DNA from: Sneathia sanguinegens
GTDB lineage: Bacteria; Fusobacteriota; Fusobacteriia; Fusobacteriales; Leptotrichiaceae
Reading direction: 5' to 3'
NCBI RefSeq assembly: GCF_001517935.1
Contig: NZ_LOQF01000003.1
Coordinates: 62,001-126,000 of the forward strand
Length of the DNA: 64,000 nucleotides
Below the pieces are notes generated by a model. It did not search any database. It saw only the letters and a list, made by a program, of their open reading frames with translations, and had not been told where the DNA came from. Shown one piece after another: positions 16,497 to 61,352 of this stretch; position 1 is the stretch's first letter; each line of letters starts with the position of its first letter. Made by a program: the position numbers and the translations under genes.

Positions 16497-17150
16497 TTAA
16501 ATATACATTAAAATTTCTTTTATATTTTTTAAGATTAGGCTACTAATATTTTTCATTTCAGCATTAGCCTTTTGTACATTAGGTATCATTATTGTATGCA
16601 TGTTAGCATTGACTCCAGCTCGTATGCCATTATATGAATCTTCAAAAACCATGCAATTATTAGGATTAACATTTTGTTTTTTTGCAGCTAGTAAAAATAT
16701 TTCTGGATTTGGTTTTCCATGTGTAATTTCATTACCAGCAGTATAATCGCAAAAATATTTTTCTAAATTATTTTTTTTAATATACTTTTTTATAATATCT
16801 ATACCTGAAGATGAGGCAATAACACATTTTTTACCCTTATCATGTAAATAGTTTAAAACATCTAAAACACCAGGTACAAGTTCAAGCCCGTATTTTTCAT
16901 TATGGTCAATTAATTTTTCATAAACTTTTTCTGATAAAGTCGCAAAAGGAAAATCTTTTCCATATTTATTTTCATAAAGTTGCTTCATGGAACTTAAATT
17001 CATTCCTATTGTTTGATTTATGGTATTTACATCAGGAGTATAACCTAATTGCTTCATTACTTCTGGTAAAAATTTTAAATAAAGTTTTTCTGTTTCAAAA
17101 ATTAAACCATCCATATCAAAAATAAATAAATCAATATTTTTAAATTTCAT
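16497..17150 (-). CDS. HAD-superfamily phosphatase, beta-phosphoglucomutase-like
   Basis: A 217-residue HAD hydrolase with all four motifs: DMDGLIFETE (motif I, with the nucleophile and acid Asp), CVIASSSG (motif II), the Lys in GKPNPEIF (motif III) and FEDSYNGIRAG (motif IV). The helical cap between motifs I and II makes it subfamily I, like beta-phosphoglucomutase and sugar-phosphate phosphatases. The substrate cannot be told. Its ATG overlaps the end of the ABC-F gene by 11 bases, so the two are coupled; no functional link is obvious. It ends just before the inverted-repeat region. Confidence 0.88.
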   Translation of the reverse strand: MKFKNIDLFIFDMDGLIFETEKLYLKFLPEVMKQLGYTPDVNTINQTIGMNLSSMKQLYENKYGKDFPFATLSEKVYEKLIDHNEKYGLELVPGVLDVLNYLHDKGKKCVIASSSGIDIIKKYIKKNNLEKYFCDYTAGNEITHGKPNPEIFLLAAKKQNVNPNNCMVFEDSYNGIRAGVNANMHTIMIPNVQKANAEMKNISSLILKNIKEILMYI

Positions 17151-19017: not shown

Positions 19018-19063
19018 AAAAACTCCTTTTTTATATTGTAGCAAAAAAAAGAAAAAAAAGAAA

Positions 19064-42409: not shown

Positions 42410-44764
42410 ATGGAAAAATATAGACTAGAAGGATTAGATTGTGCAGATTGCGGAATAAAATTAGAGAAATATTTACAGGAAAAAGAATATGTAGAAGAAG
42501 TTAGCATAAGTTTTGCAACTAAAACAATGATAATAACTACAAAGGACATGGCAAAGGTTAAAAAAGACATAAAAGAAATTGAACCTGATGTTAAAGTTTT
42601 AGAACCTAATAAAAGTAAGGCAGATATAGAAGCAGATCATGAAATAAATAATTTAGAAAAAGAAAAATATCTTATTATTACTTCATTTGTTCTTTTTGCC
42701 ATAGCATTTATTGTAGAAATATTGCAAAAATTTATGTATGTTCCTTATGATCTATATTTGTTCTTTGATCCCATATATATAGTATCTTATTTGATAATAG
42801 GGTTACCTATATTAATAGGAGCATATAATTGTATAATAAGAAAAAATTTCTTTGATGAAAAAGTACTTATGAGTATATCGACAATAGCCGCCTTTTGTAT
42901 AGGCTCATTTGAAGAAGCTTGTGGAGTTATGGTATTTTATGCTATTGGAGAATATTTCCAAAATATTGCTATTATAAATTCAAGAAAAGATATAAAGAAT
43001 TTATTAGAATTAAAAGAAGATACTGCAAATGTTATCTTAGATGAAAATGAAAACTTTGAAGAAGTTAAAATAGAAGATGTTAGGGAAGGTAGCTATATAT
43101 TAGTTAAACCTGGAGAAAAAGTACCTTTAGATGGAATAATAGTAAAAGGATCTGGAGAATTTAATTTGGCAGCTTTAACAGGTGAAAGTATGCCTAAACA
43201 AATAGAAATAGGTGAAGCAGTATATGCAGGGGCTATTAATATGAATTCTAAAATTATACTTAAAGTAACACATAAGTATGAAAATTCTTCAATGTTTAAA
43301 TTAGTCGAATTAATAGAAAGTTCTATGCATAAAAAAACGAAGGCAGATAAATTTATAACAACATTTTCTAATTGGTATACACCATGTATAATAATATTAG
43401 CTATTTTAGTTGCTATACTACCACCTTTGTTTACACAAAGAATTACTTTTGAAAAATCGCTTTATAGTAGTATAGTCTTACTTGTAATATCTTGTCCTTG
43501 TGCCTTGGTTTTGAGTATACCTTTAACATATTTTACTGGTGTTGGATCACTTGCTAAAAAAGGGATTTTAGTTAAGGCAATAAATATTTTTGATACAGTT
43601 GAAAAAGTTGATACGGTCTTTTTGGATAAAACTGGAACAATCACAGAAGGTAAGTTCCATGTTGCAGAAATAAATGAATATTATGATAATATGCGTGATT
43701 TGAATGAAAGAGAAATTTTTGAATATATTTATATTGCAGAAAATAATTCAAATCATCCCATTGCCAAAAGTATAATAGAGTTTATAAAAGCAAAATATGG
43801 CTTAACAAAGGTCAAATATGATGATGTATATATGGAATTTATTAGCTATTGTCAACATTGTGGTTGCTGTCATAAACCAAAAGAACATGGGGAAAATAAG
43901 GATGGGAAAATGTATGTTGATGAATATAGACATCATATAGGACATTTTGAGGAAGATTTATGTAATAATCATGAATTTAGTATAAATAATCCTGAAGAAG
44001 ATAAGACTTTTGGTCAAGATATTCAAATTAAAAGCCTAAAAGAAATAGCAGGTCAAGGTATAAAATTAATAACTGAAAAGTATGAAGTTTTAGTTGGAAA
44101 TGATGCTATGATGAAAAAAAATAAGGTATTGATTCCAGCTAGTGCGAAGAATATAAAGGATGAATATGGAACTAATGTTAATGTTGCCTTTAATGGGCAA
44201 TATGTTCTTAATATTTATATTAGAGATAAAGTTAAAAAAGATACTAAAGAAGCTATTAAACAAATGAGACAAAATGGTATAAAAAATATAGTTATGCTAA
44301 CAGGTGATAATAGACTTTCAGCAATGGAAGTTAAAAATTCATTAACTATTGATGAGTGCTACTATAATCTATTACCTAATGATAAGCTTAAAATATTAGA
44401 AGAACATAAAAAAGGGCAAAAAATTATGTATTTGGGTGATGGAATTAATGATGCCCCAGTTATAGCAAGTGCAGATGTAGGTGTAGCTATGGGGAAAGCT
44501 GGTAGTGATGTAACTATAGGAGCTTCAGATATAGTATTTAATACTGAAACTTTGATGAATGTTGTTTATTTGAAAAAAAATGCCAAAAAGATGAAGTATA
44601 TAGTATTAGAAAATATAAGTATAATACTTATAGTTAAATTTATTATAATCATTTTAGGTATCTTAGGCAAAGCAGGAATGTGGGGAGCTGTGTTTGGAGA
44701 TGTTGGAGTAGCTCTAGTTGCAATATTTAATTCTAAGAGAATAAAGAGAATAAAAATTAATTGA
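42410..44764 (+). CDS. Heavy-metal P1B-type ATPase (Zn/Cd/Pb efflux class), with Cys/His-rich insertion
   Basis: A 784-residue inner-membrane metal pump. An N-terminal HMA domain carries LDCADCG (residues about 9-14). Transmembrane segments flank the actuator TGES loop and the metal-binding SCPCAL; DKTGTITEG holds the phosphorylated Asp, and GDGINDAPVIASADVG the hinge. The CPC motif and the late Lys/Asp pattern (KAGMWGAVFGDVGVAL) favour the ZntA class over copper. Within the nucleotide-binding domain there is an insertion rich in Cys and His (CQHCGCCHKPKEHG, then HHIGHFEEDLCNNHEF, about residues 484-525), which is not standard and may bind metal. A terminator follows. Confidence 0.9.
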   Translation: MEKYRLEGLDCADCGIKLEKYLQEKEYVEEVSISFATKTMIITTKDMAKVKKDIKEIEPDVKVLEPNKSKADIEADHEINNLEKEKYLIITSFVLFAIAFIVEILQKFMYVPYDLYLFFDPIYIVSYLIIGLPILIGAYNCIIRKNFFDEKVLMSISTIAAFCIGSFEEACGVMVFYAIGEYFQNIAIINSRKDIKNLLELKEDTANVILDENENFEEVKIEDVREGSYILVKPGEKVPLDGIIVKGSGEFNLAALTGESMPKQIEIGEAVYAGAINMNSKIILKVTHKYENSSMFKLVELIESSMHKKTKADKFITTFSNWYTPCIIILAILVAILPPLFTQRITFEKSLYSSIVLLVISCPCALVLSIPLTYFTGVGSLAKKGILVKAINIFDTVEKVDTVFLDKTGTITEGKFHVAEINEYYDNMRDLNEREIFEYIYIAENNSNHPIAKSIIEFIKAKYGLTKVKYDDVYMEFISYCQHCGCCHKPKEHGENKDGKMYVDEYRHHIGHFEEDLCNNHEFSINNPEEDKTFGQDIQIKSLKEIAGQGIKLITEKYEVLVGNDAMMKKNKVLIPASAKNIKDEYGTNVNVAFNGQYVLNIYIRDKVKKDTKEAIKQMRQNGIKNIVMLTGDNRLSAMEVKNSLTIDECYYNLLPNDKLKILEEHKKGQKIMYLGDGINDAPVIASADVGVAMGKAGSDVTIGASDIVFNTETLMNVVYLKKNAKKMKYIVLENISIILIVKFIIIILGILGKAGMWGAVFGDVGVALVAIFNSKRIKRIKIN

Positions 44765-44869: not shown

Positions 44870-45557
44870 ATGTATAAAATTGATAAAAAAAGAGCAATGT
44901 TTATTTTAAATAAAGAATATGATAATACTATATTTGTATTATCAAAAGGTGAAGGTTCACAAATGACTTTTGCAGAAACGGTAGCAGCAATTTCAAATTT
45001 AAAAGTTAAAGCTAATGCTCGTGATATTATATTAGTTAAATCAATTCAAAATGGATTAGATTATCTTTTAGATAAATTGTATTATGATGACTTATATTTT
45101 GATAAAGATATTTTATGTATGATAAATAGATATGTAGCAGCTAATGAAAATTTTGATAATATAGGTGGCTTTTCCATTTCAGCTAGAATATGAATTTGAT
45201 GTTTTAAAATGTTGGTACAAAAATGAAAAAGAAAATAAGGGCAGAAAATATATTGAATTAGCTTTAAAATTATTTAAGCATCAATTTTTTGGAGATGGAA
45301 ATAAGAGAACAGCACAACTTATGATGAATGGTTTATTAGTGAAAAAAGGGTATGCTCCTTTTGTAATTAATTTTTATGATGAAAATACATCAAAAGAGTT
45401 GGTAGATTATTATGATAATGATAATATAATACCATTATTTAAAACAATGTTAAAAGCTCAAAAAGAAACAATGCTTTCATATTGTATCCCAGGAGAAGAA
45501 AAGAAAATAGAAGAAGAATATGAAAATGATTTAGAAATTATTGAAGGTGGAAAATGA
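44870..45557 (+). pseudogene. Fic/DOC family protein, frame-disrupted
   Basis: Fic proteins transfer AMP or other nucleotides to targets through HxFx(D/N)GNxR. The N-terminal half (44870-45193) ends at TGA soon after NFDNIGGFSISARI. A second frame from about 45165 continues with LEYEFDVLKCWY and holds the active-site HQFFGDGNKRTAQ (about 45279). The halves belong to one gene, broken by a frameshift or a small deletion near 45165-45190, where the normal linker is missing. The catalytic motif is intact, but a full product would need frameshifting. The stop overlaps the start of mod copy 1 (ATGA), so it was the first gene of a restriction-modification operon; Fic genes are frequent partners there. 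Confidence 0.8.
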
Positions 45558-46225
45558 ATATATCAAAAGAAAAAAGAGAAAAACTTTTAAATTATTTAGA
45601 AAAATTAAAAGAAGGAAAAGAAGATGAAGATATTAGAATAATATCAGAAATTGAAAAAGCATTAAATAAAAAGAAATATGGATTAGTATGGGAAGAACAT
45701 AGTGAAAAAGTAGACGAAGAATTAAAAACAAATATACCAGTATTTAAAGAAGTAGAAGAAAGAAAAATAGAAAAAGATAAAGAAAAAGCATATAACTTTT
45801 TACTAGAAGGAGATAACCTACATTCATTAAGACTATTAGAAAAGACACATAAGGGGAAAATAGATGTAATATATATAAGATCCACCATATAATACAGGTA
45901 ATAAGGATTTTATTTATAATGATCAATATGTAGACAAAACAGATGGCTACTCACATAGTAAGTGGCTAAGCTTTATGTAAAAAAGACTAAGAATAGCAAA
46001 AGAATTATTAACAGAAGAAGGAGTAATCTTCATTTCGATAGATGATAATGAACAAGCACAATTAAAGTTACTTTGCGATGAGATATTTGGGGGAGAGAAT
46101 TTTATAGCTAGTATTACAAGGAATACAAATAGTTCTAAAAATCAAAGTTTGTATATTTCAGTAAGTCATGAATACTGTTTAGTATATTCAAAAAATATTT
46201 ATAAATGGAACAATGCCAGATAGTA
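45554..46225 (+). pseudogene. Type III DNA methyltransferase Mod, copy 1 (decayed, truncated)
   Basis: The first 105 codons match copies 2 and 3 closely. One extra A near 45877-45880 then shifts the frame just before the DPPYNTG motif, and a substitution turns GAA into TAA at 45978-45980 further on. Homology continues through LLCDEIFGGENF to the start of a different target-recognition region (ASITRNTNSSKNQ), then ends near 46210-46225, where unrelated toxin-like sequence begins. The conserved C-terminal part and [10 protein letters not shown] are missing. The gene is dead, but its 5' part is a potential donor for recombination with the intact copies. Confidence 0.85.
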
Positions 46226-46292
46226 TATTTGATAAATATAAAAGTAGAACAGAGCTTATCCCCATTGAACCTTATACTTCAAAAGTACATAG

Positions 46293-46727
46293 AGGTGTAA
46301 TCTAATAGGTGCAGGTAATAGTGGTATATATAAAAATACCAAGGGAGCATTAAAACCAGAGCATTTGATGGATGAGCTTAGACGAAGTGGTGTTAAATTT
46401 ACAGAAGAAGATGTTATAGCAATAATGAGACAGAAAAATGGGAATATAGCTTGGTTAGAAAAGGGAAATAAAAGAGCTGGTTTTAGACATATATTAAATG
46501 AACATGAAAAAGACTTTAAATTGATAGGAATAGATAAATATCAATTACCTAGAGTAATTATTTATGCAATAAAAGTAGGGAAAATAGTTGGAAAACAAGG
46601 AACTGGTAAATTTCCGAGAGATATATATGAGATAGAGCTAAATGGGAAGAGAAAATATATAGCAATAACTATATCTAAAAATGGATATATTATAGGAGCT
46701 AATCCAAGTAAGGGGAACATGAAATGA
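46293..46727 (+). CDS. C-terminal toxin tip of a CdiA/polymorphic toxin (BECR-fold RNase-like), orphan
   Basis: The frame is open from 46293 without a good start; ATG 46368 is possible but lacks a ribosome site, so this looks like a displaced fragment of a large secreted toxin. A pretoxin-like part (GAGNSGIYKNTKGALKPEHLM) is followed by a compact domain with GFRHILNEHEKDF (His pair), IGKIVGKQG-type loops and the strand ending KYIAITISKNGYIIGANPSK. This pattern resembles the barnase/EndoU/colicin-E5/RelE-like (BECR) toxins. The stop overlaps the next gene by four bases, the usual toxin-immunity arrangement. Enzymatic activity is inferred only. Confidence 0.6.
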   Translation, partial: RCNLIGAGNSGIYKNTKGALKPEHLMDELRRSGVKFTEEDVIAIMRQKNGNIAWLEKGNKRAGFRHILNEHEKDFKLIGIDKYQLPRVIIYAIKVGKIVGKQGTGKFPRDIYEIELNGKRKYIAITISKNGYIIGANPSKGNMK

Positions 46728-47035
46728 AAACAATAAGAATTGATTTAGAATATGGTTTATATCCAATGTGGTTACTTAATGAAAATGGATATATTATAGA
46801 CAATATACTTGCAGAGCAATTGGGACTAGATGATGAAATTACAGAAAAAGTACAGAAATTACAAGATTTATATGATAGTTTATTTATAAATACAAAAATA
46901 GAATTTTCATATATTGGAGATAAAGAACCTAAAAAGATAGAAGAAATAAAAAAACTATATTTAGAAATTTCAAATAAAATTAAAAGTAAATTAAAATACA
47001 GATATAATGTTAAAATTTCAGAATTGAATATTTAA
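46724..47035 (+). CDS. Probable immunity protein
   Basis: A 103-residue acidic protein starting KTIRIDLEYGLYPMWLLNENG, with a beta-rich N-terminus and a helical C-terminus. It starts inside the toxin stop codon (ATGA), is small, has no signal peptide and no recognised family, all as expected for a cognate cytoplasmic immunity protein. It would neutralise the toxin domain encoded just upstream. The assignment rests on position and size. Confidence 0.6.
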   Translation: MKTIRIDLEYGLYPMWLLNENGYIIDNILAEQLGLDDEITEKVQKLQDLYDSLFINTKIEFSYIGDKEPKKIEEIKKLYLEISNKIKSKLKYRYNVKISELNI

Positions 47036-47055
47036 ATTAAGTAGTAAATAAATGA

Positions 47056-47253
47056 AGAAATTTAGATTTATATTCATCATATTATAAAATAGACTATAAA
47101 AACCAGCCAGTATATTTTGATAAAGAACAAGAAAAGAAAGATAAATACAAAATGCTAGACTTATTGGGTAAACTCCGAAAAAGACTCGATGAATTAAATG
47201 ACGGTTCTTTTGAAATTGATGACATAGAAACTGAAAGGGTTAAAAAACTGTAA
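47056..47253 (+). pseudogene. 5'-truncated gene relic (possible second immunity protein)
   Basis: A frame without start codon runs from 47056 to a TAA at 47251-47253. It encodes NLDLYSSYYKIDYKNQPVYFD, a Lys/Glu linker and KLRKRLDELNDGSFEIDDIE. It looks like the C-terminal part of a small acidic protein, in keeping with immunity gene remnants that pile up behind toxin tips, but I recognise no family. The rest of the 320-base gap before mod copy 2 is A/T-rich and shows nothing further except a GGAGAA ribosome site before 47356. Confidence 0.45.
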
Positions 47254-47355
47254 TGAAAGAATTTGTTACACAAAAAAGCTATTGATTTTGCAAAGTTGTA
47301 AATGAAATAAAGGTGAGGATAATTAAAAAATAAATAATAGGAGAATAGATAAACA

Positions 47356-49089
47356 ATGAATTTATCAAAAGAGAAAAGAGAAAGACTTTTAAATTATTTA
47401 GAAAAATTAAAAGAAGGAAAAGAAGATGAAGATATTAGAATAATATTAGAAATTGAAAAAGCCTTAAATGAAAAGAAATATGGTTTAGTATGGGAAGAAC
47501 ATAGTGAAAAAGTAGACGAAGAATTAAAAACAAATATACCAGTATTTAAAGAAGTAGAAGAAAGAAAAATAGAAAAAGATAAAGAAAAAGCATATAACTT
47601 TTTACTAGAAGGAGATAACCTACATTCATTAAGACTATTAGAAAAGACACATAAGGGGAAAATAGATGTAATATATATAGATCCACCATATAATACAGGT
47701 AATAAGGACTTTATTTATAATGATCAATATGTAGACAAAACAGATGGCTATTCACATAGCAAGTGGCTAAGTTTTATGGAAAAAAGATTAAGAATAGCAA
47801 AAGAATTATTAACAGAAGAAGGAGTAATCTTCATTTCAATAGATGATAATGAACAAGCACAATTAAAGTTACTTTGTGATGAGGTGTTTGGGGGAGAGAA
47901 TTTTGTTTCAAGTATATGTGTAGAATTATCCAAAACACAAGGAATGAAAGTAAAGTCAGCACAAGAAGGAAGAATTGTTAAGAATCACGAATATATTTTT
48001 ATATATAGTAAAAATATAGAAAAGATATATATAGATAGAAAACCATTGTACGAAAAAACAGATATTTGGGACAATCATTTTAATAAAATAATTTTAAATT
48101 TAGATAATAAATACTATATATACACAATTGATGAATACATAAAAAATAATAATGAGAAGATATTTAAATTATTTCAAAAATATAATATTTTAGATAATGA
48201 AAAGATTACAAATAATAGCATAAGAAAAGGTATATTAATAAATGAAGAAATACAAAAATATTTTTATAATGATATTTCAGATATAATATATCAAGAAATG
48301 GCATGTAGTATTGCGATTCCAGAATATATAATTGAAAAATTAGAAAAAGAAAAGATATTAAAATATGAGAAATATTTATTAACCACAACATCTAGTGGTA
48401 AAATAAGACAATTAAGATCGCTTAAAGAAAATATTAATTTTTCTGATGATTATGATCCAAAATTGCAAAGAGTTACAATAAGAGGAGCATTGTGGAAAGA
48501 TTTTTACTCAGATATGATGAATATTCAAAAAGAAGGGAAAATGGATTTTAAAAATGGTAAAAAACCTATTAGACTTATAAAACAATTAAATAAATGGTTC
48601 AACAGAAAAAATTCAATAGTCTTAGACTTCTTCGCAGGATCAGGTACAACAGGACATGCAGTTGTACAGCTTAATAAAGAAGATGGTGGAAATAGGAAAT
48701 ATATTCTTTGTACTAATAATGAAAATAATATATGTGAAGATGTAACATATAAAAGACTTAGTAATATACAAGAAGAATTGCCACATAATTTAAAATACTA
48801 TAAGGTAGATTGTGTATCAAAATCAGATGAAGAAGTATATGAAAAATTAAATGAACATATACAAGAAATGGTGAATTTGGAAGAAGGAAAAGAAGTAAAA
48901 GTAATTTACGATGAAGAAGAAGTAGAAAAAGTATTAGAAGAAAGTGCTTGTGATAGTTCAGTATATATTATGGGTGGAATAATGTTAAGTGGTAAAGAAC
49001 AAAAAATAGTAGAAAAAAAGAGAATAAAGATAAAAGAGGTTCCAGAAATATATTATAGAAATGAATTGAAAGAGTTGGGAGAAATATAG
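47356..49089 (+). CDS. Type III restriction-modification methyltransferase Mod, copy 2
   Basis: A 577-residue adenine-N6 methyltransferase of the beta class: catalytic motif IV DPPY at residues 109-112 comes before the SAM-binding motif [11 protein letters not shown] (about 424). In between, residues about 185-420 form the target-recognition domain, unique to this copy ([15 protein letters not shown] at its start). The C-terminal 150 residues, from the FAGSG motif, are almost identical to copy 3 and would mediate dimerisation and contact with Res. The frame is intact. Promoter not seen; a GGAG site precedes the ATG. It could modify DNA alone or with the res product. Confidence 0.92.
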
Positions 49090-49304
49090 TATAGAAATAA
49101 TTAAAGATTGGTTAGATATGGCAATTATACTAAAAAAGAATGAGCAATATGGGCAAAAATAAGATTAGCTATAATTTATATAGATACAATCAAAAAATTT
49201 ATAAAATAGAGAGTTAAATTTTAATTTAATTATTGGACATCGTATAAATTATTTTTTTAAAAATTTAGATATAGAAACTTAATGAATATAAAAAAGAGGT
49301 TAAT

Positions 49305-50003
49305 ATGAAAGATTTTTTGGAAAATATCGATATTATAGATATAAATGAATATGCTGAAAAAGTAGAAAAAATGAGTCAAAATATGGAATCATTATTTAGT
49401 GATAATGCAGGAATACATAGAACAGCTTATTTAAGTTGGAATATGAGAGATATTATTGACTCGGAGGAAGAAAAATTAATATTTTTAGCTGATTCTTATT
49501 ATTTTGTTAGTAAAAAAACATTAGAAGAATGTTTTGAATGTTATGAAAATAGAGATGCAGATAGGCTGATTTTTCCTATATTATTTTGCTTTATTCAAAC
49601 TATAGAATTATATTTTAAAGCTATAATTATAGTGATGGAAAAAATTTCAGAAGAAAAAGATATTTCTATTTCAAAATATAGGCACAATTTAAATAAATTA
49701 TATGAATATATAAAAAAAAGAATGGAAAAAGAAGAAGGTTCGGAACAATTATTAACAGGATTAAATTTAATATATAATTTTATAAAAAATATATATGATA
49801 AAACAAATGATTTAACTTTTGTGAGATATCCTTATACAAATAAAGGAGAAGAACAATTTTATTTAAAACAAAGAGAAGTCATAGATTTAGATATTTTATA
49901 TGAAAATATGGAATATGTGTATAAAATGCTTGTATTTATATATTTAGATTATTCTAGTAAATTAGAAATTATGGAAGAAATGAGAAATTCATATTCATAT
50001 TAG
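49305..50003 (+). CDS. HEPN-like helical protein in the restriction locus
   Basis: A 232-residue, all-helical, acidic protein. The middle (LIFPILFCFIQTIELYFKAIIIVMEK, then SKYRHNLNKLYEYIKKRM) resembles HEPN-type folds, where such a hydrophobic helix followed by an HNL/HxL helix is common; the later FVRYPYTNKGEEQFY also recalls that group. The canonical RxxxxH ribonuclease motif is not obvious, so activity is uncertain. A ribosome site (AAAGAGG) precedes the ATG. It sits between two intact mod genes, 12 bases before copy 3, so it belongs to the island's accessory genes and may be a defence or antitoxin-like component. Confidence 0.6.
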   Translation: MKDFLENIDIIDINEYAEKVEKMSQNMESLFSDNAGIHRTAYLSWNMRDIIDSEEEKLIFLADSYYFVSKKTLEECFECYENRDADRLIFPILFCFIQTIELYFKAIIIVMEKISEEKDISISKYRHNLNKLYEYIKKRMEKEEGSEQLLTGLNLIYNFIKNIYDKTNDLTFVRYPYTNKGEEQFYLKQREVIDLDILYENMEYVYKMLVFIYLDYSSKLEIMEEMRNSYSY

Positions 50004-50014
50004 AAAGGTGGAAA

Positions 50015-51565
50015 ATGAATATATCAAAAGAAAGAAGAGAAAAACTTTTAAATTATTTAGAAAAATTAAAAGAAGGAAAAGAAGATGAAGATATTAGAAT
50101 AATATCAGAAATTGAGAAAGCCTTAAATGAAAAGAAATATGGATTAGTATGGGAAGAACATAGTGAAAAAGTAGATGAAGAATTAAAAACAAATATACCA
50201 GTATTTAAAGAAGTAGAAGAAAGAAAAATAGAAAAAGATAAAGAAAAAGCATATAACTTTTTACTAGAAGGAGATAACCTACATTCATTAAGACTATTAG
50301 AAAAGACACATAAGGGGAAAATAGATGTAATATATATAGATCCACCATATAATACAGGTAATAAGGACTTTATTTATAATGATCAATATGTAGACAAAAC
50401 AGATGGCTATTCACATAGTAAGTGGCTAAGTTTTATGGAGAAAAGATTAAGAATAGCAAGGGAGTTATTGATAGATGATGGTATTATTTATATAAGTATC
50501 GATGATAATGAACTATTTCAACTTAAACTATTATGTGATGAAATTTTTGGAGGAGCAAATTTTATAGCTAATTTTACAAGAACTACCAGAAAAGGTGGTG
50601 GAAGCATGTCTAAGTATGTTTCAACTGATCATGAATATATATTGCTATATTCTAAAGATATAACAAAAAAAAATAGATTTTATGTTCCTTTTGATGAAAA
50701 ATATTTAAAGCGTTATAATGAATCAGATGATAATGGTAAATATTTTTGGGATACATTTGCAAGGAATAGACAAGGGAGTTCAAATATTTATAAAATTGAA
50801 TTTCCTAATGGAGAATTAGTAGAAAATTCTTGGATATATAAAAAAGAAAAATTTCTTGAATTATTAAAAAAAGGAGATATTAGATTTAAAAAAATAGCTG
50901 ATGGAAAATATTCATTACAAATAAAGCAAAGATTAAATGAAAATGGACAAATAATGAGAAGTGAAATAAGAGATTATCCTAATTCTTTGGGAACAAAAAC
51001 ATTAGTAAATTTAATTGGTAAAGATAAATTTAACTATGCAAAGCCGATAGAACTAATAATGTATATTCTTAGTTTTTCTAACAAAAACTCCACAATCCTC
51101 GACTTCTTCGCAGGATCAGGTACAACAGGACATGCAGTGGCAAAGCTTAATGTTGAAGATGGAGGGAATCGTAAGTATATATTATGTACTAATAATGAAA
51201 ATAATATATGTGAAGATGTAACATATAAAAGACTTAGTAATATACAGGAAGAATTACCACATAATTTAAAATACTATAAGGTAGATTATGTATCAAAATC
51301 AGATGAAGAAGTATATGAAAAATTAAATGAACATATACAAGAAATGGTAAATTTGGAAGAAGGAAAAGAAGTAAAAGTAATCTACGATGAAGAAGAAGTC
51401 GAAAAAGTATTAGAAGAAAGTTCTTGTGATAGTTCAGTATATATTATGAGTGGAATAATGTTAAGTGGTAAAGAACAAAAAATAGTAGAAAAAAAGAGAA
51501 TAAAGATAAAAGAGGTTCCAGAAATATATTATAGAAATGAATTGAAAGAGTTGGGAGAAATATGA
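50015..51565 (+). CDS. Type III restriction-modification methyltransferase Mod, copy 3
   Basis: A 516-residue beta-class adenine methyltransferase. DPPYNTG lies at residues 109-115 and [10 protein letters not shown] at about 364. The target-recognition region (about 180-360; NFTRTTRKGGGSMS at its start) has no similarity to copy 2, so a different recognition sequence is expected. The N-terminal 150 and C-terminal 150 residues are near-identical to copy 2. AAAGGTGGAAA precedes its start, as it does mod copy 1. The stop overlaps the res start (ATGA), making it the copy currently coupled to the endonuclease. Confidence 0.93.
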   Translation: MNISKERREKLLNYLEKLKEGKEDEDIRIISEIEKALNEKKYGLVWEEHSEKVDEELKTNIPVFKEVEERKIEKDKEKAYNFLLEGDNLHSLRLLEKTHKGKIDVIYIDPPYNTGNKDFIYNDQYVDKTDGYSHSKWLSFMEKRLRIARELLIDDGIIYISIDDNELFQLKLLCDEIFGGANFIANFTRTTRKGGGSMSKYVSTDHEYILLYSKDITKKNRFYVPFDEKYLKRYNESDDNGKYFWDTFARNRQGSSNIYKIEFPNGELVENSWIYKKEKFLELLKKGDIRFKKIADGKYSLQIKQRLNENGQIMRSEIRDYPNSLGTKTLVNLIGKDKFNYAKPIELIMYILSFSNKNSTILDFFAGSGTTGHAVAKLNVEDGGNRKYILCTNNENNICEDVTYKRLSNIQEELPHNLKYYKVDYVSKSDEEVYEKLNEHIQEMVNLEEGKEVKVIYDEEEVEKVLEESSCDSSVYIMSGIMLSGKEQKIVEKKRIKIKEVPEIYYRNELKELGEI

Positions 51566-53796
51566 TAGGAATAAATTTGAAAGATTTTCAAGAAAGAACG
51601 GTAGATTTTTTAATAGATAAAACTATGGATTCAGAATCAAATAGAAGAATAATAGTGAAAAGTCCAACTGGTAGTGGTAAGACAATAATATTATTAAACT
51701 TTATTGAAAGATATCTTGATATATCTGATGCAGTATTTTGTTGGTTGTGTCCTGGTAAAGGTGAACTTGAAAAGCAATCTCTTGAAAAAATGAATAAATT
51801 TTGTCCTAATTTAAAGACTGGAGATATAGACAGTATAATAAATAATGGATTTGAATTGAATACAACATATTTTATTAATTGGGAAAAAATTACAAAAAGG
51901 GGTAATATTGCAATTTCAGACACAGAAAGAAAGAATTTGTTTGAAAGAATTGCAGAAGCACATTCACAACAGTTTCCGTTTATAATAATAATTGATGAAG
52001 AACATAATAATGATACTAAAAAAGCTGATGATATAATAAATAGTATAAATGCTAAATATGAAATAAGAGTTTCGGCTACACCTAATCCAAAATCTATTGG
52101 TGAAATATATGAAATAAAAGAAGAAGATGTAATTAATGAAGGTTTAATTACAAAATTTATGTATATTAATAAAGATTTAAATGAAGTTGAAATAGATGAT
52201 ATACAACATGAAACGAATATATTAATTGAAAAGGCAAATGAAATTAGAAAACAAGTAAAAGAAGAATATAGAAAAATAGGAGAGAATATTAACCCTTTAG
52301 TTTTAGTTCAATTTCCTAACTTAAATGATGATCTTATACAACAAGTAGAAGATAAATTAAATGAAATGGGATACAGTTATGAAAATGGATTGGTTTCTAG
52401 TTGGTTTTCATCAGCAGATAAAAAAGAAAAATCTAAAAAAATAGGTATAATTAATCTAAAAGATATAACGAATATTGATGGAAAACAAGATTTTCTTTTA
52501 TTTAAACAAGCAATTGCAACAGGTTGGGACTGTCCGAGAGCGAAAATTTTGGTAAAATTAAGAGAAAAAATGAGTGAAACATTTGAAATACAGACTTTAG
52601 GTAGACTAAGAAGAATGCCTAGGGCAATACATTATGAAGATGATATATTAGATTGTTCATATTTATACACATTTGATGAAAAGTATAAATTAGAAGTTAT
52701 TAACTCAGGTTTAGGTTGTGAAAAACAAAAAGTATTTTTGAAAAATGACGCAAAGGAAATAAAATTAATAAAGCAAACAAGAAAAGATGACTATCAATAT
52801 CAAGATGAAAAAAAAGTTAGAAAAAATATTTATGAATTTTTAAAGAAAAAGTATAAATTAGGAACGATAAAGGAAAATAATAAAAAGATTTTAGAAATAT
52901 ATGGATATGAGTTTGGAGAATATATTACAAAGACATATCTTAAAGGAAAATATACAACTTTTGAACAAATAACAAAAAGTAAAGATATATCAAAAATGAA
53001 TATAAAGATAGATACACACTTACATGGTATAGATTTGCAACATAATACAAATGAATTGAAAAAAACGATGGGGCTTTCATATGAAACAACTAATAAAATT
53101 TTAAGAACCTTATTTAAAAAAGGCTATGGTATTAATTCAAATAAATTACTTAATTTAAAATTAAGTGAATATTATACTTTCATAATTAATAATATTGATA
53201 AGTTAAAAGAAGTATTTTATGAATTTCAAGAAATAGAATTGCAAGATAGTGGTGTACAACAAATAAAAGAAGCTAAAGAAGATTACTTCTATATTCCAAA
53301 AGAAGAATATTATGACTTTATACCTAATTCAAAAAATGTAGAAATAATGAATTCAAATGTATATAAAGGATATAATACAAGTATGATAGTTGAAGGAATA
53401 AGAAGTAAGCCTGAAAGATTGTTTGAAAAATATTGTGAAAGTTCTGAAAATGTTAAGTATTTCTATAAAAATGGAGATAAAGGGACTGAATATTTATCAA
53501 TAGTGTATATTACTAATTTGGGAAAAGAAAGTCTTTTTTATCCAGATTATGTTGTCGAAATGAAAGATGGAACAATTTGGCTAATAGAAACAAAAGGTGG
53601 AGAATATAAAGGTCAAAGTAAAAATATTGATATACAAGTTGGAAATAAATTTAAAGTTCTTAAAAATTTTTGCAAAAGACATGGATATAATTTTGGCTTT
53701 GTAAGAGATGTAAATGATGAATTATATATTAATAACGAAAAATATGTAGATGATATGAAAAATGATAGCTGGAAGAAATTATCAAAAGTTATATAA
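51562..53796 (+). CDS. Type III restriction endonuclease subunit Res
   Basis: A 744-residue superfamily 2 helicase-nuclease. Walker A SPTGSGKT is at residues 34-41, DEEH (motif II) near 149, VSATPNP (motif III-like) follows, and ATGWDCPRAKILV with QTLGRLRRMP forms motifs V and VI. The C-terminal PD-(D/E)XK nuclease reads YPDYVVEMKDGTIWLIETKGG (about residues 660-680). It acts with a Mod dimer to translocate and cut DNA at unmodified sites. It is slightly short for Res (usually 850-1000). It is coupled to mod copy 3, and there is one res for three mod genes. Confidence 0.93.
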   Translation: MIGINLKDFQERTVDFLIDKTMDSESNRRIIVKSPTGSGKTIILLNFIERYLDISDAVFCWLCPGKGELEKQSLEKMNKFCPNLKTGDIDSIINNGFELNTTYFINWEKITKRGNIAISDTERKNLFERIAEAHSQQFPFIIIIDEEHNNDTKKADDIINSINAKYEIRVSATPNPKSIGEIYEIKEEDVINEGLITKFMYINKDLNEVEIDDIQHETNILIEKANEIRKQVKEEYRKIGENINPLVLVQFPNLNDDLIQQVEDKLNEMGYSYENGLVSSWFSSADKKEKSKKIGIINLKDITNIDGKQDFLLFKQAIATGWDCPRAKILVKLREKMSETFEIQTLGRLRRMPRAIHYEDDILDCSYLYTFDEKYKLEVINSGLGCEKQKVFLKNDAKEIKLIKQTRKDDYQYQDEKKVRKNIYEFLKKKYKLGTIKENNKKILEIYGYEFGEYITKTYLKGKYTTFEQITKSKDISKMNIKIDTHLHGIDLQHNTNELKKTMGLSYETTNKILRTLFKKGYGINSNKLLNLKLSEYYTFIINNIDKLKEVFYEFQEIELQDSGVQQIKEAKEDYFYIPKEEYYDFIPNSKNVEIMNSNVYKGYNTSMIVEGIRSKPERLFEKYCESSENVKYFYKNGDKGTEYLSIVYITNLGKESLFYPDYVVEMKDGTIWLIETKGGEYKGQSKNIDIQVGNKFKVLKNFCKRHGYNFGFVRDVNDELYINNEKYVDDMKNDSWKKLSKVI

Positions 53797-53860: not shown

Positions 53861-53986
53861 GATTGTGAAAAATAAAAAAAGCAAAATTTTATGATGATGA
53901 CTTTGAAAGATATAGAAGCATAATTAGAATAATTAAATTTAGTCTGTCAAGTAAAAGTGATTTTGTCGCAAAAATTCAATTTTATT

Positions 53987-54013
53987 AGCCCTGTTTTTTA
54001 AGCAGGGCTTTTT
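53987..54013 (+). terminator. Second terminator-like hairpin
   Basis: AGCCCTG (53987-53993) with CAGGGCT (54003-54009), then TTTTT. No gene ends directly before it; it may insulate the glucuronide operon or be the remains of a lost gene's end. Confidence 0.75.
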
Positions 54014-54118
54014 CACATTTTTTAGATTTCTTTTGAATTAACTTCTTTTTTTCATCTATTTCTATTAAGTTGTACACTTTATCTCACAATAGTCATAAAA
54101 AAAATTACTATTTTTTTA

Positions 54119-54146
54119 TTGACAAAAGTCTAAATCGAGTTACAAT
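54119..54146 (+). promoter_or_regulatory. Promoter of the glucuronide operon
   Basis: TTGACA (54119-54124) and TACAAT (54141-54146), 16 bases apart, 38 bases before uxaC. The stretch around CGAGTTACAATATAG and GACAACGAGG has partly symmetrical GTTAC/GACAAC boxes that could be an operator. No regulator gene is adjacent. Confidence 0.65.
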
Positions 54147-54184
54147 ATAGTAGATAATGACAACGAGGACAAAAGGAGGCAAAA

Positions 54185-55573
54185 ATGAAATTAGATATGG
54201 AGAAATTTATGCTTAACAGTGAATTGGCTAATAAGCTATACACTGAATATGCGAAAGATATACCTATTTATGACTACCATTGTCATTTAGACCCTAAAGA
54301 AATATATGAAGATAAGGAATTTTCTAATATTTCTAAAATTTGGTTAAATGGTGATCACTATAAATGGCGTGCTATGAGGGCGAATGAAATTCGTGAAGAA
54401 TATATTACAGGTGATAAGACAGATTATGAAAAATTTTATGCATGGGCTAGTACACTTGATAAGTGTATATTAAATCCACTTTATCACTGGAATGCATTAG
54501 AATTAAAAAGATATTTCAATATAGATGAAATATTAACAAGTAAAAATGCAAACGTTATTTGGGATGCTGTTAATAGTATAAAGTATAGTCCAAGAAAGTT
54601 AATAGAAATATCTAATGTAAATACTTTATGTACGACTGATAGTCCGATATCAGATTTAAAATATCATAAATTAATACGTGAAAGTAACTTTAAAACTAAT
54701 GTGTTACCGGGATTTAGACCCGATGAAGCATTAAGTATAGGTAAATCTAAGTTCTATAACTTTATTAATCAAATTCCTTCTGTTGTAGGATATGAAATAA
54801 AGGGGTATGAGGACTTAGTTAGAGCATTAAGTGAAAGAATAAAATATTTTGATGAAAATGGTACTTGTGTTTGTGATCATGGACTAACATATATGCCATT
54901 TGAAAAGGCTAGTTTAGAAGAAGTAAAAGAAATTTTTAAGAAAGCTTTAAATAAAGAGGAATTAAGTGAAAAAGAAGTAAATAAATATTTGACAAGGCTC
55001 TTAGTAGATTTAAGCAAAGAATACAAAAAATATGATTGGACTATGCAAATACATTTTGGTGCTATCAGAGATAATAACAAGAAATACTTTGAAAAGTTAG
55101 GTTATGATACAGGATTTGATTCAATTACTGATGATACAAATTTAGCATACAAGTTAAATGGCTTATTAAATGAAATGGTAGAAAATGACAGTTTACCTAA
55201 AATGATAATATATAACTTAAACCCTATGTATAATGATTTGATAGCAAGCACTATAGCAAATTTTCAAATAAACAATGGAAATATGCAATTTGGTGCTGCT
55301 TGGTGGTTCAATGATACTAAAGAAGGTATGCTAAAACAAATGAAATGTTTAGCAAATAATGGTTTATTCTCAAAATTTGTAGGTATGTTAACAGATTCAA
55401 GAAGTTTCTTATCATATACAAGACATGATTACTTTAGAAGAATTTTGTGTGATTTCATTGCTGATTTAGTAGAAAAAAACGAAATACCAAAAGATATGGA
55501 TATGTTAAAAGAACTGATACAGAATATTTGTTATTATAACGCAAAAAGATATTTTGAAAAAAGGGGTAGATAG
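54185..55573 (+). CDS. uxaC: Glucuronate isomerase
   Basis: UxaC converts D-glucuronate to D-fructuronate, the first step of hexuronate breakdown. The 462-residue length is normal. IYDYHCHLDPKEIYED (about residues 28-43) carries the metal-binding HxH of this amidohydrolase-fold family, and GDHYKWRAMRANEI, CDHGLTY, MQIHFGAIRDNN and RHDYFRR are typical UxaC motifs. AAAGGAGG precedes the ATG. It is the first gene of an operon of seven tightly packed genes; uxuA starts two bases after its stop. Confidence 0.96.
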   Translation: MKLDMEKFMLNSELANKLYTEYAKDIPIYDYHCHLDPKEIYEDKEFSNISKIWLNGDHYKWRAMRANEIREEYITGDKTDYEKFYAWASTLDKCILNPLYHWNALELKRYFNIDEILTSKNANVIWDAVNSIKYSPRKLIEISNVNTLCTTDSPISDLKYHKLIRESNFKTNVLPGFRPDEALSIGKSKFYNFINQIPSVVGYEIKGYEDLVRALSERIKYFDENGTCVCDHGLTYMPFEKASLEEVKEIFKKALNKEELSEKEVNKYLTRLLVDLSKEYKKYDWTMQIHFGAIRDNNKKYFEKLGYDTGFDSITDDTNLAYKLNGLLNEMVENDSLPKMIIYNLNPMYNDLIASTIANFQINNGNMQFGAAWWFNDTKEGMLKQMKCLANNGLFSKFVGMLTDSRSFLSYTRHDYFRRILCDFIADLVEKNEIPKDMDMLKELIQNICYYNAKRYFEKRGR

Positions 55574-55574
55574 A

Positions 55575-56630
55575 ATGAAAATAGGATTTAGATGGTACGG
55601 TACCGAGGATAATATACCAGTTGAATATATTAGACATATACCAAATGTAGATACAGTGGTAACGGCTGTATACAGCGTAAAAGTAGGAGAAGTTTGGCCT
55701 ATGGAAGATATATTAGATTTAAAAGAAAAGGCTAATAAAGTAGGACTTAATTTCCTTGTAGTAGAAAGTATACCAGTACATGAAGATATTAAATTAGGTA
55801 AAAGAGACTACAAGAGATATATAGAAAACTATAAGGAAAATATTAGAAGATGTGCAAAAGCAGGAGTAAAGGTTATATGCTACAATTTCATGCCTGTATT
55901 TGATTGGACAAGAAGTGAATTAGATCATAAAAGAGAAGATGGATCAACATGTTTAGTATTTTATAAGGATCAAATAAAAAAACTTGACCCTACAAAATTA
56001 GCACTTCCTGGATGGGATTCATCATATAGTGTTGAAGAAATGGCAAAGTTAATTAATGAGTATAAAGAATTAGGAGAAGAAGGATTATGGAAGAATCTAG
56101 AATACTTCTTAAAAGAAATAATACCAGTGGCTATAGAAAATGATGTATATATGGCAATACATCCAGATGATCCACCATATTCAATATTTGGTATACCAAG
56201 AATAATAACTTGCAGAGATAATTTAAGAAGATTTTTAGATATATATCCTGATAAACACCATGGTTTAACAATGTGTGCTGGAAGTTTAGGATGCGATCCT
56301 AGAAATGATTATATAGCTATGGTTAAAGAATTTGGTAGTGAAGGAAGAATACATTTTGCACATTTAAGAAATATAAAGATACTAGAGGACGGAAGCTTTG
56401 AAGAATCAGGTCATATAACGAAAGAAGGTAGTTTAGATTTTTCTGAAATAGTTAAGACATACTATAATTTAGGCTACAAAGGTTACTTTAGACCAGATCA
56501 TGGAAGAATGATATGGGGAGAAACAGGTAAACCAGGTTATGGTCTATATGACAGAGCGTTAGGAGTAGCATATATAAATGGATTATGGGAAATGTGTGAA
56601 AAATTAAAAGGGGGCAAAAATGAAAAATAA
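55575..56630 (+). CDS. uxuA: D-mannonate dehydratase
   Basis: UxuA removes water from D-mannonate to give 2-keto-3-deoxygluconate. From the ATG at 55575 (KIGFRWYGTEDNIPVEYIRHIP) it has 351 residues. Conserved features are CYNFMPVFDWTRS, the metal-site IHPDDPPYSIFG, MCAGSLGCDPRND and IHFAHLRN. In-frame codons further upstream fall inside uxaC. Its end overlaps the reductase gene by 11 bases. Confidence 0.96.
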   Translation: MKIGFRWYGTEDNIPVEYIRHIPNVDTVVTAVYSVKVGEVWPMEDILDLKEKANKVGLNFLVVESIPVHEDIKLGKRDYKRYIENYKENIRRCAKAGVKVICYNFMPVFDWTRSELDHKREDGSTCLVFYKDQIKKLDPTKLALPGWDSSYSVEEMAKLINEYKELGEEGLWKNLEYFLKEIIPVAIENDVYMAIHPDDPPYSIFGIPRIITCRDNLRRFLDIYPDKHHGLTMCAGSLGCDPRNDYIAMVKEFGSEGRIHFAHLRNIKILEDGSFEESGHITKEGSLDFSEIVKTYYNLGYKGYFRPDHGRMIWGETGKPGYGLYDRALGVAYINGLWEMCEKLKGGKNEK

Positions 56631-57429
56631 AGTAGTAGTTGTAACTGGAGCAGCAGGTGTAATTTGTTCAATGATAGCAAAACATTTTGCAAAATTAGGT
56701 GCTAAGGTAGCGATGCTAGATTTAAATTATGAAAAAGCAAAAGAATATGAAAAAGAATTTACAAAAGAAGGGCTAAAGACTAAGGCATATAAGTGTAATG
56801 TTTTAGATAAAAAAAATATTGAAGAAGTTTATGAAAATATAAAAAAGGATTTAGGTAAGGTAGATGTATTAATAAATGGTGCTGGGGGAAATAATCCAAA
56901 AGCAACAGCAGACCAAGAATTCTACGATAAAGAAAACAAAGGTACAAGCTTTTTTGACTTAGATCCTAAAGGTATAAGTTTTGTTTTTGATTTAAATATT
57001 TTAGGAACAATATTACCCACACAAGTAATTGCAAAAGATATGGAAAAAGGATGTAGCATAATAAATATATCAAGTATGAACTCATACACACCATTAACAA
57101 AGATAGTTGCATATTCAGGGGCCAAAGCTAGTGTAAATAACTTTACACAATGGTTAGCAGTACACTTAGCCAAAGTAGGCGTAAGATGTAATGCAATAGC
57201 ACCAGGATTTTTAGTAACTAATCAAAATAAAAAGTTATTATTTAATGATGATGGAACACCAACACAAAGAACAGGTAAGATATTAAGAAATACACCAATG
57301 GAAAGATTTGGAGAACCAGAAGAAATGTTAGGAGCATTAGAATTTTTAGTAGATAATGAAAAAGCAAGTTTTATTACAGGAGTAATAATACCTATTGACG
57401 GCGGATTCAGTGCATATTCGGGGGTATAA
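56620..57429 (+). CDS. SDR-family D-mannonate oxidoreductase (fructuronate reductase)
   Basis: A 269-residue short-chain dehydrogenase. The NAD(P)-binding TGAAGVICSM, NGAGGNNP, the Ser of NISSMNSY and the catalytic YSGAK (Tyr about 168) are all present. It lies between uxuA and the transporter, and the pathway step left open by its neighbours is reduction of fructuronate to mannonate, which SDR enzymes of the YjmF/UxuB-replacing type catalyse. It is not related to the long-chain UxuB of E. coli. Context makes the assignment likely, though the fold alone would not show the substrate. Confidence 0.87.
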   Translation: MKNKVVVVTGAAGVICSMIAKHFAKLGAKVAMLDLNYEKAKEYEKEFTKEGLKTKAYKCNVLDKKNIEEVYENIKKDLGKVDVLINGAGGNNPKATADQEFYDKENKGTSFFDLDPKGISFVFDLNILGTILPTQVIAKDMEKGCSIINISSMNSYTPLTKIVAYSGAKASVNNFTQWLAVHLAKVGVRCNAIAPGFLVTNQNKKLLFNDDGTPTQRTGKILRNTPMERFGEPEEMLGALEFLVDNEKASFITGVIIPIDGGFSAYSGV

Positions 57430-57432
57430 TAT

Positions 57433-58851
57433 ATGGAATATAGAAAGTTTGGTATGTTAGATAAATTAGCATACATGTCAGGTGACGTAGCAAATGATTT
57501 GTCATTTATATTTGTAATGATGTATTTAATGGTATTCTATACTAAGGTATTAGGTATATCAGGAGCAGTAGTAGGATTACTATTTTTAACTGCAAGAATA
57601 GTTGATGCATTTACTGATATAGGGATGGGTAGATTAGTTGACGTAATCAAACCAAGAAAAGAAGGTAAATTTAGATTTTGGATAAAAATAGTTGCACCTT
57701 TTGTAAGTTTATCGTCATTTTTACTATTTGTATATGTAGTTAAATATTTTTCTATGCCTATAAAAATAGCATATATATTTGTTACATACATTTTTTGGGG
57801 AAGCATATGCTATACAGCAATAAATATTCCGTATGGATCAATGGCTTCAGTTATAACTATAGATTGTGAAAAAAGAGCATCATTATCAGTATATAGAAGT
57901 GTAGGAGCAAGTATATCAATTTTATTAATCTCATATATAGTTCCTAAAGTGATATTTGTTGAAAAGTATATAGATGGTAAGTTAGAAAATGTAATAGTCC
58001 CAGAAAGATTTACAATTTTAGCCTTAGCATTTTCAATTTTATCATTCATATTCTATATGTTTTGCTATAAATTTTCTATAGAAAGAGTAAAAGTTAAAAT
58101 TTGTGAGTATAATAAAGAAGAAAAGAGTTTTTTAAAAGAAGTAAAGAAGATAGGAAATAGCTTAAAAGTTAATAGATCATTACAAGTATTTTTGGTAATA
58201 TCTTTAATATATTTATTAACAACAATGTTAGGTAGTGGTTTATCAGCATATATTTATATTGATTATTTTAAAAATAAAGAAGTATTAGCGTATTCAGGTA
58301 TGATAGGAGCAATTTTAACATTTGCTGTCTCACCTATTGCAAGTAAAATAGTAAAAAAGATAGGTAAAAAGACATCAGGATCAATAGGTCTATTAATATC
58401 AGGAGGCATATTCATAATTCTATACCTTTTAAGACTTAATAATGCATGGATATTCTTTGCGTTTTTTGTACTATGTGCACTAGGTACATCATACTTTAAT
58501 GTAATAGTTTGGGCCTTTATAACAGACATAATAGATGATCAAGAAGTTAGAACAGGTTGTAGAGAAGATGGTACAGTATATGCTGTATATTCATTTGCTA
58601 GAAAGTTAGGTCAAGCATTAGCTGGTGGGATGACAGGATTCATATTATCATATATAGGATATAATTCAAGTCAAGTAATACAAAGTGTAAGTGTAAGTAA
58701 TAGTATTTATTCAATATACACATTAGCACAAGGAGTAGGTTGTATTTTATGTGGTGTAGTACTACTATTTATATATCCTTTAGGTATAAAGCAAGTTATG
58801 ATAAATACAGAAAAATTAAATAAACGTAGAGAGGTAGAAAATGAAAAATAG
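57433..58851 (+). CDS. GPH-family glycoside/hexuronide:cation symporter
   Basis: A 472-residue inner-membrane carrier with twelve predicted helices. The N-terminal KLAYMSGDVANDLSFIFVMMYLMVFYTKVLG and the TDIGMGRLVDVIKPRKEGKFRFW loop are typical of the UidB/MelB/YjmB (GPH) group. It would bring a glucuronide into the cytoplasm with Na+ or H+. Its position between the hexuronate genes and two cytoplasmic glycosidases supports an uncleaved oligosaccharide or glucuronide as substrate. The gene starts three bases after the reductase stop and overlaps the HAD gene by 11. Confidence 0.92.
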   Translation: MEYRKFGMLDKLAYMSGDVANDLSFIFVMMYLMVFYTKVLGISGAVVGLLFLTARIVDAFTDIGMGRLVDVIKPRKEGKFRFWIKIVAPFVSLSSFLLFVYVVKYFSMPIKIAYIFVTYIFWGSICYTAINIPYGSMASVITIDCEKRASLSVYRSVGASISILLISYIVPKVIFVEKYIDGKLENVIVPERFTILALAFSILSFIFYMFCYKFSIERVKVKICEYNKEEKSFLKEVKKIGNSLKVNRSLQVFLVISLIYLLTTMLGSGLSAYIYIDYFKNKEVLAYSGMIGAILTFAVSPIASKIVKKIGKKTSGSIGLLISGGIFIILYLLRLNNAWIFFAFFVLCALGTSYFNVIVWAFITDIIDDQEVRTGCREDGTVYAVYSFARKLGQALAGGMTGFILSYIGYNSSQVIQSVSVSNSIYSIYTLAQGVGCILCGVVLLFIYPLGIKQVMINTEKLNKRREVENEK

Positions 58852-59644
58852 GAAAATTGTATGTATAGATTCAGATGGTTGTGCTATGGATACTATGAAT
58901 TACAAACATATATATTGTTTTGGACCTATTGCTGTAAAAGTATTTAATATAAAAGAAAAAGAAGAATTTTTAAAAAAATGGAATAAGATAAATCTTTATT
59001 CAAAAACAAGAGGAGTAAACAGATTTGTTGGGCTTTCCTTAGTGTTTGATAGTATAAATAAACCTTTAAACGATTTGAAAGCATGGATAAATTCAACAAA
59101 TGAGTTATCAAATAAGTCTTTAGAGAAAGAAATTTCCAAAAAAAAGAGTGGTGAGTTAGAAAAGGCACTTATATGGAGCAATGAAGTTAATAGAAAAATA
59201 GAAAGTATAAAATATATGGCTAAGCCTTTTTCTAGCGTTAAAGATGCAATACATAAGATAAAAAAATATGTGGATATAGCAATAGTGTCAGCAGCAAATA
59301 ATGAGGCTATAAAAGACGAATGGGAAAAATTTGGATTAATAGATTATGTAGATTATGTAATGGGTCAAAGTCAAGGTACGAAGAAAGATTGTATTAAATA
59401 TTTAATTGATAAAGGGTATGAACCTAAAAATATAGTGATGATGGGTGATTCACCAGGAGATATACTGTCTGCAAAAGAAAATAATGTTCTTATGTACCCT
59501 ATAATAGTAAACGAAGAAAATAAAAGTTGGGATTTATTCATAAACCATATCCTAGAAAAATTTTTGAAAGATGAATACAAAGATGCTGAATATATAAAAA
59601 AATATGAAAGAAAGTTAGGTGACTTAGATGCCAAGAACAGTTAA
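58841..59644 (+). CDS. HAD-family hydrolase in the glucuronide operon
   Basis: A 267-residue HAD protein. Motif I is CIDSDGCAMD (Asp nucleophile and acid two residues on), motif II VSAANNEA, motif III Lys within SQGTKKD and motif IV MGDSPGDILSAKE. A large helical insertion follows motif I (KHIYCFGPIAVKVFN, then KTRGVNRFVGLSL). It is embedded in the operon, overlapping both neighbours (11 and 17 bases). A sugar-phosphate or phosphorylated by-product is the probable substrate, perhaps for detoxification; no specific reaction can be named. Confidence 0.85.
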   Translation: MKNRKIVCIDSDGCAMDTMNYKHIYCFGPIAVKVFNIKEKEEFLKKWNKINLYSKTRGVNRFVGLSLVFDSINKPLNDLKAWINSTNELSNKSLEKEISKKKSGELEKALIWSNEVNRKIESIKYMAKPFSSVKDAIHKIKKYVDIAIVSAANNEAIKDEWEKFGLIDYVDYVMGQSQGTKKDCIKYLIDKGYEPKNIVMMGDSPGDILSAKENNVLMYPIIVNEENKSWDLFINHILEKFLKDEYKDAEYIKKYERKLGDLDAKNS

Positions 59645-61340: not shown

Positions 61341-61352
61341 TGAGGTGATAAT

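Follow-up and report, generated by a model that had tools for sequence, protein, structure and literature searches.

Type III restriction-modification (R-M) enzymes are Res1Mod2 complexes, each of which binds a single site (PMC4005696), and in most systems Mod methylates without Res (PMC8259958). The closest described arrangement to the locus analyzed here is that of Mycoplasma agalactiae 5632, where a tandem mod pair (MAGa1570/MAGa1580; REBASE M1/M2.Mag5632ORF1570P) with one res has been published together with methylome data (PMC9465063). Only one of the two tandem mods was tied to a motif, and the authors raised the possibility that both Mods are needed (PMC9465063). Movement of target-recognition domains (TRDs) by recombination in conserved flanks is likewise a published mode in Type III systems (PMC3311624, PMC3983042).

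We analyzed a 64,000-nt window (27% GC) of the Sneathia sanguinegens genome, a 1.29 Mb draft in 32 contigs. Its Type III locus (44870-53796) contains one intact res, two intact mod genes and one broken third mod, with all genes on the + strand in the order frameshifted fic, mod1 remnant, toxin/immunity-like cassette, mod2, a gene for a 232-aa helical protein, mod3 and res. The first-pass annotation had described the interval as three mods and one res. This anatomy holds, except that 44870-45557 is the fic gene and copy 1 starts at 45554; the fic gene, the cassette (46198-47263) and the helical-protein gene (49305-50003) had been missed. It had also regarded the tandem array as a different architecture, a claim that the M. 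agalactiae report (PMC9465063) contradicts. The locus is an informative further example of a layout already known from mycoplasmas.

The two intact mods, mod2 (47356-49089) and mod3 (50015-51565), encode Type III methyltransferases of 577 aa (TRD at ~aa 180-420) and 516 aa (TRD at ~aa 180-360), respectively. Both products match the PADLOC MTase_III model PDLC03642 (E 3.7e-152 for Mod2 and 1.5e-189 for Mod3) and Pfam N6_N4_Mtase, and each carries DPPY before the TRD and FxGSGTT after it, the order of beta-type amino-methyltransferases. Mod2 additionally matches 4zcf_A (E 9e-36). The res gene (51562-53796) encodes a 744-aa protein detected by Pfam ResIII (E 8e-17) and PADLOC REase_III (E 5e-15), in which the motifs GSGKT, DEEH, SATP, GRxRR and a PD-(D/E)xK-like PDY...ETKGG represent the SF2 helicase and PD-(D/E)xK nuclease of a Type III Res. 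The end of mod3 and the beginning of res share 4 nt, so that res directly follows mod3, and mod2 has no res linkage. Judged by these features, Mod2 and Mod3 are intact Type III Mods and Res a complete helicase-nuclease, in agreement with the first-pass annotation, which had called copies 2 and 3 intact and only copy 3 coupled to res. A candidate res remnant 3' of mod2 was rejected, its local alignment being matched or beaten by 42 of 200 shuffles.

At their ends, mod2 and mod3 are nearly identical. The first ~420 nt (block 47355-47775, with further copies from 45553 and 50014) are 93-100% identical in DNA, the last ~360 nt (48730-49089, second copy ~51206-51565) 97-98%, and the middle only 44-67%; the proteins share 93% identity in the N-terminal domain, 95% in the C-terminal domain and 27% in the TRD. 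As direct repeats, the N-terminal blocks are 97-98% identical over 300 nt in three copies (45553, 47355, 50014) and 94%/82% over a further 237 nt, and a C-terminal 300-nt repeat is 92% identical in two copies (48607, 51083). Such identity is far above chance. Near-identical ends, unrelated centres and long direct repeats had all been noted before; we only slightly correct the limits of the variable centres, to ~aa 180-420 (Mod2) and ~aa 140-395 (Mod3) with the imported "shoulders" counted. Furthermore, mod1 and mod2 are alike to nt ~540, and mod2 and mod3 only to nt ~420. Because these boundaries differ, at least two separate exchanges took place, and their breakpoints fall within the conserved domains. 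Blocks of low dS (0.07-0.08) give way abruptly to shoulders of dS 0.5-3, a pattern that fits recombinational import.

A second array, in a genome of the same family (G096), allowed the domains to be compared across genera. Within each genome the copies share 93/95% (window) and 89/85% (G096) of their N/C-terminal residues; between the two genomes, the values are 76-79% for N and 55-58% for C. When mod centres are aligned across related genomes, the mod2 TRD is 62% identical to that of G096 copy A vs 27% to that of mod3, and the TRD of G096 copy B has its counterparts in clostridial mods (50-54%). AU tests rejected a mod2+G096_A grouping for the N+C domains (p 2.9e-12) and, for the TRDs, rejected both mod2+mod3 (p 1e-61) and G096_A+G096_B (p 9e-78). 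The N/C domains cluster by genome and the TRDs by allele across genomes, and this tree conflict (AU tests p<1e-11) indicates that the recombination among copies previously proposed is real. The mod carrying this shared allele, TRD-A, occupies the same place in both genomes, upstream of the res-linked mod, with dN 0.27 and dS ~1.5 (saturating) between them. Since it is intact in both genera and dN is below dS, it looks conserved by selection. On a wider scale, the single mod of G094 has a TRD ~80% identical to TRDs of Fenollaria and Streptococcus porci, with its own C domain at 53-60% and C domains among the three at 51-60% (L120, L021, L011), which indicates inter-phylum TRD movement.

Taken as a whole, we consider it probable that this is a multi-specificity Type III R-M locus in which Mod2 and Mod3 share a single Res, and two Mods sharing one Res to give two specificities is the most likely interpretation of the sequence. 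Mod2 and Mod3 would each dimerize, each reading its own non-palindromic site through its own central TRD and methylating one adenine within that site. Mod2, Mod3 and possibly Mod2:Mod3 heterodimers would recruit the single Res, because the N/C domains responsible for catalysis, dimerization and Res binding are nearly identical; with two Mods recruiting one Res, the cell would protect, and could restrict at, two sequences. The sequence itself establishes that the genes are intact, that the TRDs differ between copies with common flanks, and that their history is mosaic; Mod2 activity, Res sharing and heterodimers are what we infer from the genes, and mod2 may be unexpressed. The array would have originated by mod duplication upstream of res, followed by import of foreign TRDs through homologous exchange within the conserved domains. 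The flanks would have been kept alike by recent duplication or by gene conversion, and losing copies would decay, as exemplified by mod1, truncated by the toxin/immunity-like cassette. The locus is a clean natural experiment that asks whether Mods differing in specificity can share one Type III Res and whether mixed dimers are functional.

Alternatively, only mod3-res may work, with mod1 and mod2 as leftovers or silent donors; mod2 would be either a cassette kept silent or an allele in transition towards decay. The broken and truncated mod1 and the confinement of res coupling to mod3 speak for this, as do the decayed third copy beside two intact ones in G096 and the M. agalactiae pair member without an assigned motif (PMC9465063). 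However, all 577 codons of mod2 are intact and every motif is present, its TRD allele survives intact at the equivalent position in another genus, and its dN is well below dS, so that we regard this explanation as unlikely. Less probable still is recombination-driven phase variation, in which frequent exchange between repeats would alter the TRD coupled to res and switch the methylome. The first-pass annotation had proposed that the repeats let specificity be swapped and cassettes dropped; past recombination is certain and long near-identical repeats do flank different TRDs, but no feature of the locus points to reversible switching. Only direct repeat copies were found there and no inverted ones, the flanking ORFs scanned include no recombinase, and neither a phasevarion-type nor a (GA)n simple sequence repeat (SSR) is present, the longest dinucleotide run in the mods being 4 units. 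Known recombination-switched Type I hsdS genes, in contrast, depend on inverted repeats, and a recombinase is often encoded at the locus (PMC7394358). As the repeats are direct, crossovers would delete and gene conversion would overwrite, neither being readily reversible. Slow homologous deletion and gene conversion are the mechanisms that the sequence appears to leave; they would homogenize the ends, and the wreck of mod1 fits them. Finally, short reads mis-joined across 97-98% repeats of 300-540 nt could produce an artefactual array in a 32-contig draft, an explanation we find very hard to credit given that the genes flanking each copy are unique to it, that each copy carries substitutions of its own and that the same arrangement occurs in independent assemblies (G096, L145, mycoplasmas).

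The mod1 remnant (45554 to ~46197) retains the N-terminal domain, whose DNA is 97-98% identical to that of mod2 and mod3, and ~34 aa belonging to a third TRD. Its reading frame is shifted close to the DPPY codons and interrupted by an in-frame stop, and its C-terminal half is gone, all of which supports its earlier description as a decayed third variant. The TRD stretch is identical at 34 of 34 aa to a mod of Gemella sp. GH3 (L013), with 75% DNA identity over the whole 644-nt match including the N domain. Likeness to the closest TRD relative ends at 46197, exactly where the cassette begins, which suggests that a toxin/immunity-type module has taken the place of the 3' half of mod1. The cassette (46198-47263) comprises a PBECR1-like nuclease ORF (46365-46727; Pfam PBECR1 E 0.006, below cut-off), a small ORF (46724-47035) that is possibly an immunity gene, and the remnant of a second immunity-like gene (47048-47263). 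An unaligned structure model of the PBECR-like ORF (pLDDT 39) was too poor for structure search. A diverged paralogue lies on another contig of the same genome (G000:C5; L152:7341-8107; 69-77% DNA identity), where it is near repeated phage-regulator-like genes, and in G091 a relative is found at the C-terminal end of a large ORF. The cassette looks like a displaced polymorphic-toxin module. Upstream of mod1, the Fic/DOC-family gene (44870-45557) is split by a frameshift into overlapping ORFs (44870-45193 and 45165-45557). It matches Pfam Fic (E 3e-4, below cut-off) and PADLOC PDC-S04 (E 1.5e-6), and contains HQFFGDGNKRTAQL, which resembles the Fic motif. Its 3' end overlaps the mod1 start by 4 nt, and a Fic-Mod1 unit may once have existed.

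Between the intact mods, the gene for the 232-aa helical protein (49305-50003) starts 215 nt after mod2 and ends 12 nt upstream of mod3. Given this short gap, it is probably cotranscribed with mod3 and res as one transcription unit. By eye the protein is perhaps HEPN-like; its unaligned AlphaFold model is all-helical and of low confidence (pLDDT 44), too poor for structure search. Across the locus, Rfam searches gave zero matches, and the promoter/terminator scan found 75 promoter-like sites vs 77 expected in this 27% GC DNA.

The locus is bordered by a gene for a metal-transporting P-type ATPase (42410-44764) on one side and by a hexuronate operon (from 54185) on the other. Short repeats at 53945-54175 were considered as element ends and set aside: 54089-54175 has a near-consensus promoter before uxaC, and we read this stretch as a shared promoter. 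A 9-kb hexuronate/glucuronide utilisation island (54088-63090) is 97% identical to that of a sister species (G001), and the ATPase gene just 5' of the R-M locus is 79% identical to its G001 counterpart, which sits elsewhere in that genome. These observations suggest recent transfer between the two species. G001 itself has no mod, and the flanks lie far apart in it, leaving no empty-site comparison with an ancestral locus. Elsewhere in the window, a 634-aa protein encoded on the - strand (17140-19044) matches PADLOC mad3 of the MADS system (E 6e-53).

Tandem mod arrays appear to be uncommon but recurrent, the occurrence counts being lower bounds. In the phylum of the window, at least 28 of 98 genomes have a match and at least two carry arrays: that of the window itself and that of G096, where two intact mods are accompanied by a C-terminal piece of a third mod and by res. 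(At L119:1200-3231, a SIR2-type protein and a TIR-like protein come after the G096 array; by eye, they recall Thoeris.) At least 34 of 198 Mycoplasmatales genomes have a match; L132, L133 and L134 show mod-mod-res with several copies frameshifted, and L136 shows mod-res-mod. Another mycoplasma contig, L135, was not counted as mod-mod-mod-res: its three mod copies are followed by a 901-aa Walker-A ORF unmatched to Res. Among the matches listed, tandem mods occur only in the seed for Clostridia (at least 16 of 391 genomes with a match) and not at all in the order of Streptococcus porci (at least 6 of 298). In the genome contigs of the best 80 relatives, some of them short, only a Clostridium MAG (L074) has a second adjacent mod among the matches listed, on a contig that ends before any res, and L021 has an N-terminal mod fragment after res. 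One IMG/VR contig with mod-mod-res was found (L145). It is conceivable, if somewhat doubtful, that such arrays repeatedly provide a single Res with several specificities through interchangeable N/C domains and homo- and heterodimers, gene conversion keeping the dimer/Res interface over genus-level time and TRDs being exchanged freely, even across phyla. Independent duplication and TRD replacement in each lineage is the alternative to such long-term concerted evolution. If the shared-Res reading with concerted evolution holds, these arrays would be to Type III systems what multi-hsdS loci are to Type I. The TRD alleles shared by window mod2 and G096 and by mod1 and Gemella show Type III specificity modules travelling between phyla, and a single locus may allow host-restricted bacteria to accumulate several specificities.

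Compared with known systems, the locus most resembles that of M. agalactiae 5632: at least two Type III mods with conserved ends and different central TRDs stand in tandem before one REase gene, likely as an operon, and mod copies are often pseudogenised. The M. agalactiae copies are ~65% identical overall, whereas the flanks here are 93-98% identical in DNA; here unrelated genes lie between the copies and the third copy is dead. The M. agalactiae mods have (GA)n phase-variation tracts and those of the window have no SSR, the tract being a feature of that example and not of the tandem layout. Res sharing and mixed dimers are a question already raised for that species. En bloc replacement of the TRD/DRD via conserved flanks, including across species, links the locus to phasevarion modA (PMC3311624) and the Type III mods of Helicobacter pylori (PMC3983042), although in those cases the alleles that exchange occupy single-copy loci across a population, and here alternative alleles adjoin in one genome. 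Duplicated hsdS genes of Type I systems (PMC7394358) similarly combine duplicated specificity determinants and different TRDs in one R-M locus, but they rely on inverted repeats, often with a recombinase, for reversible switching, in contrast to the direct repeats here, with no recombinase in the flanking ORFs scanned. Finally, the domain make-up of Mod and Res is that of EcoP1I/EcoP15I (Res1Mod2; PMC4005696; PDB 4zcf), in which one mod accompanies each res, whereas here two intact mods accompany one.
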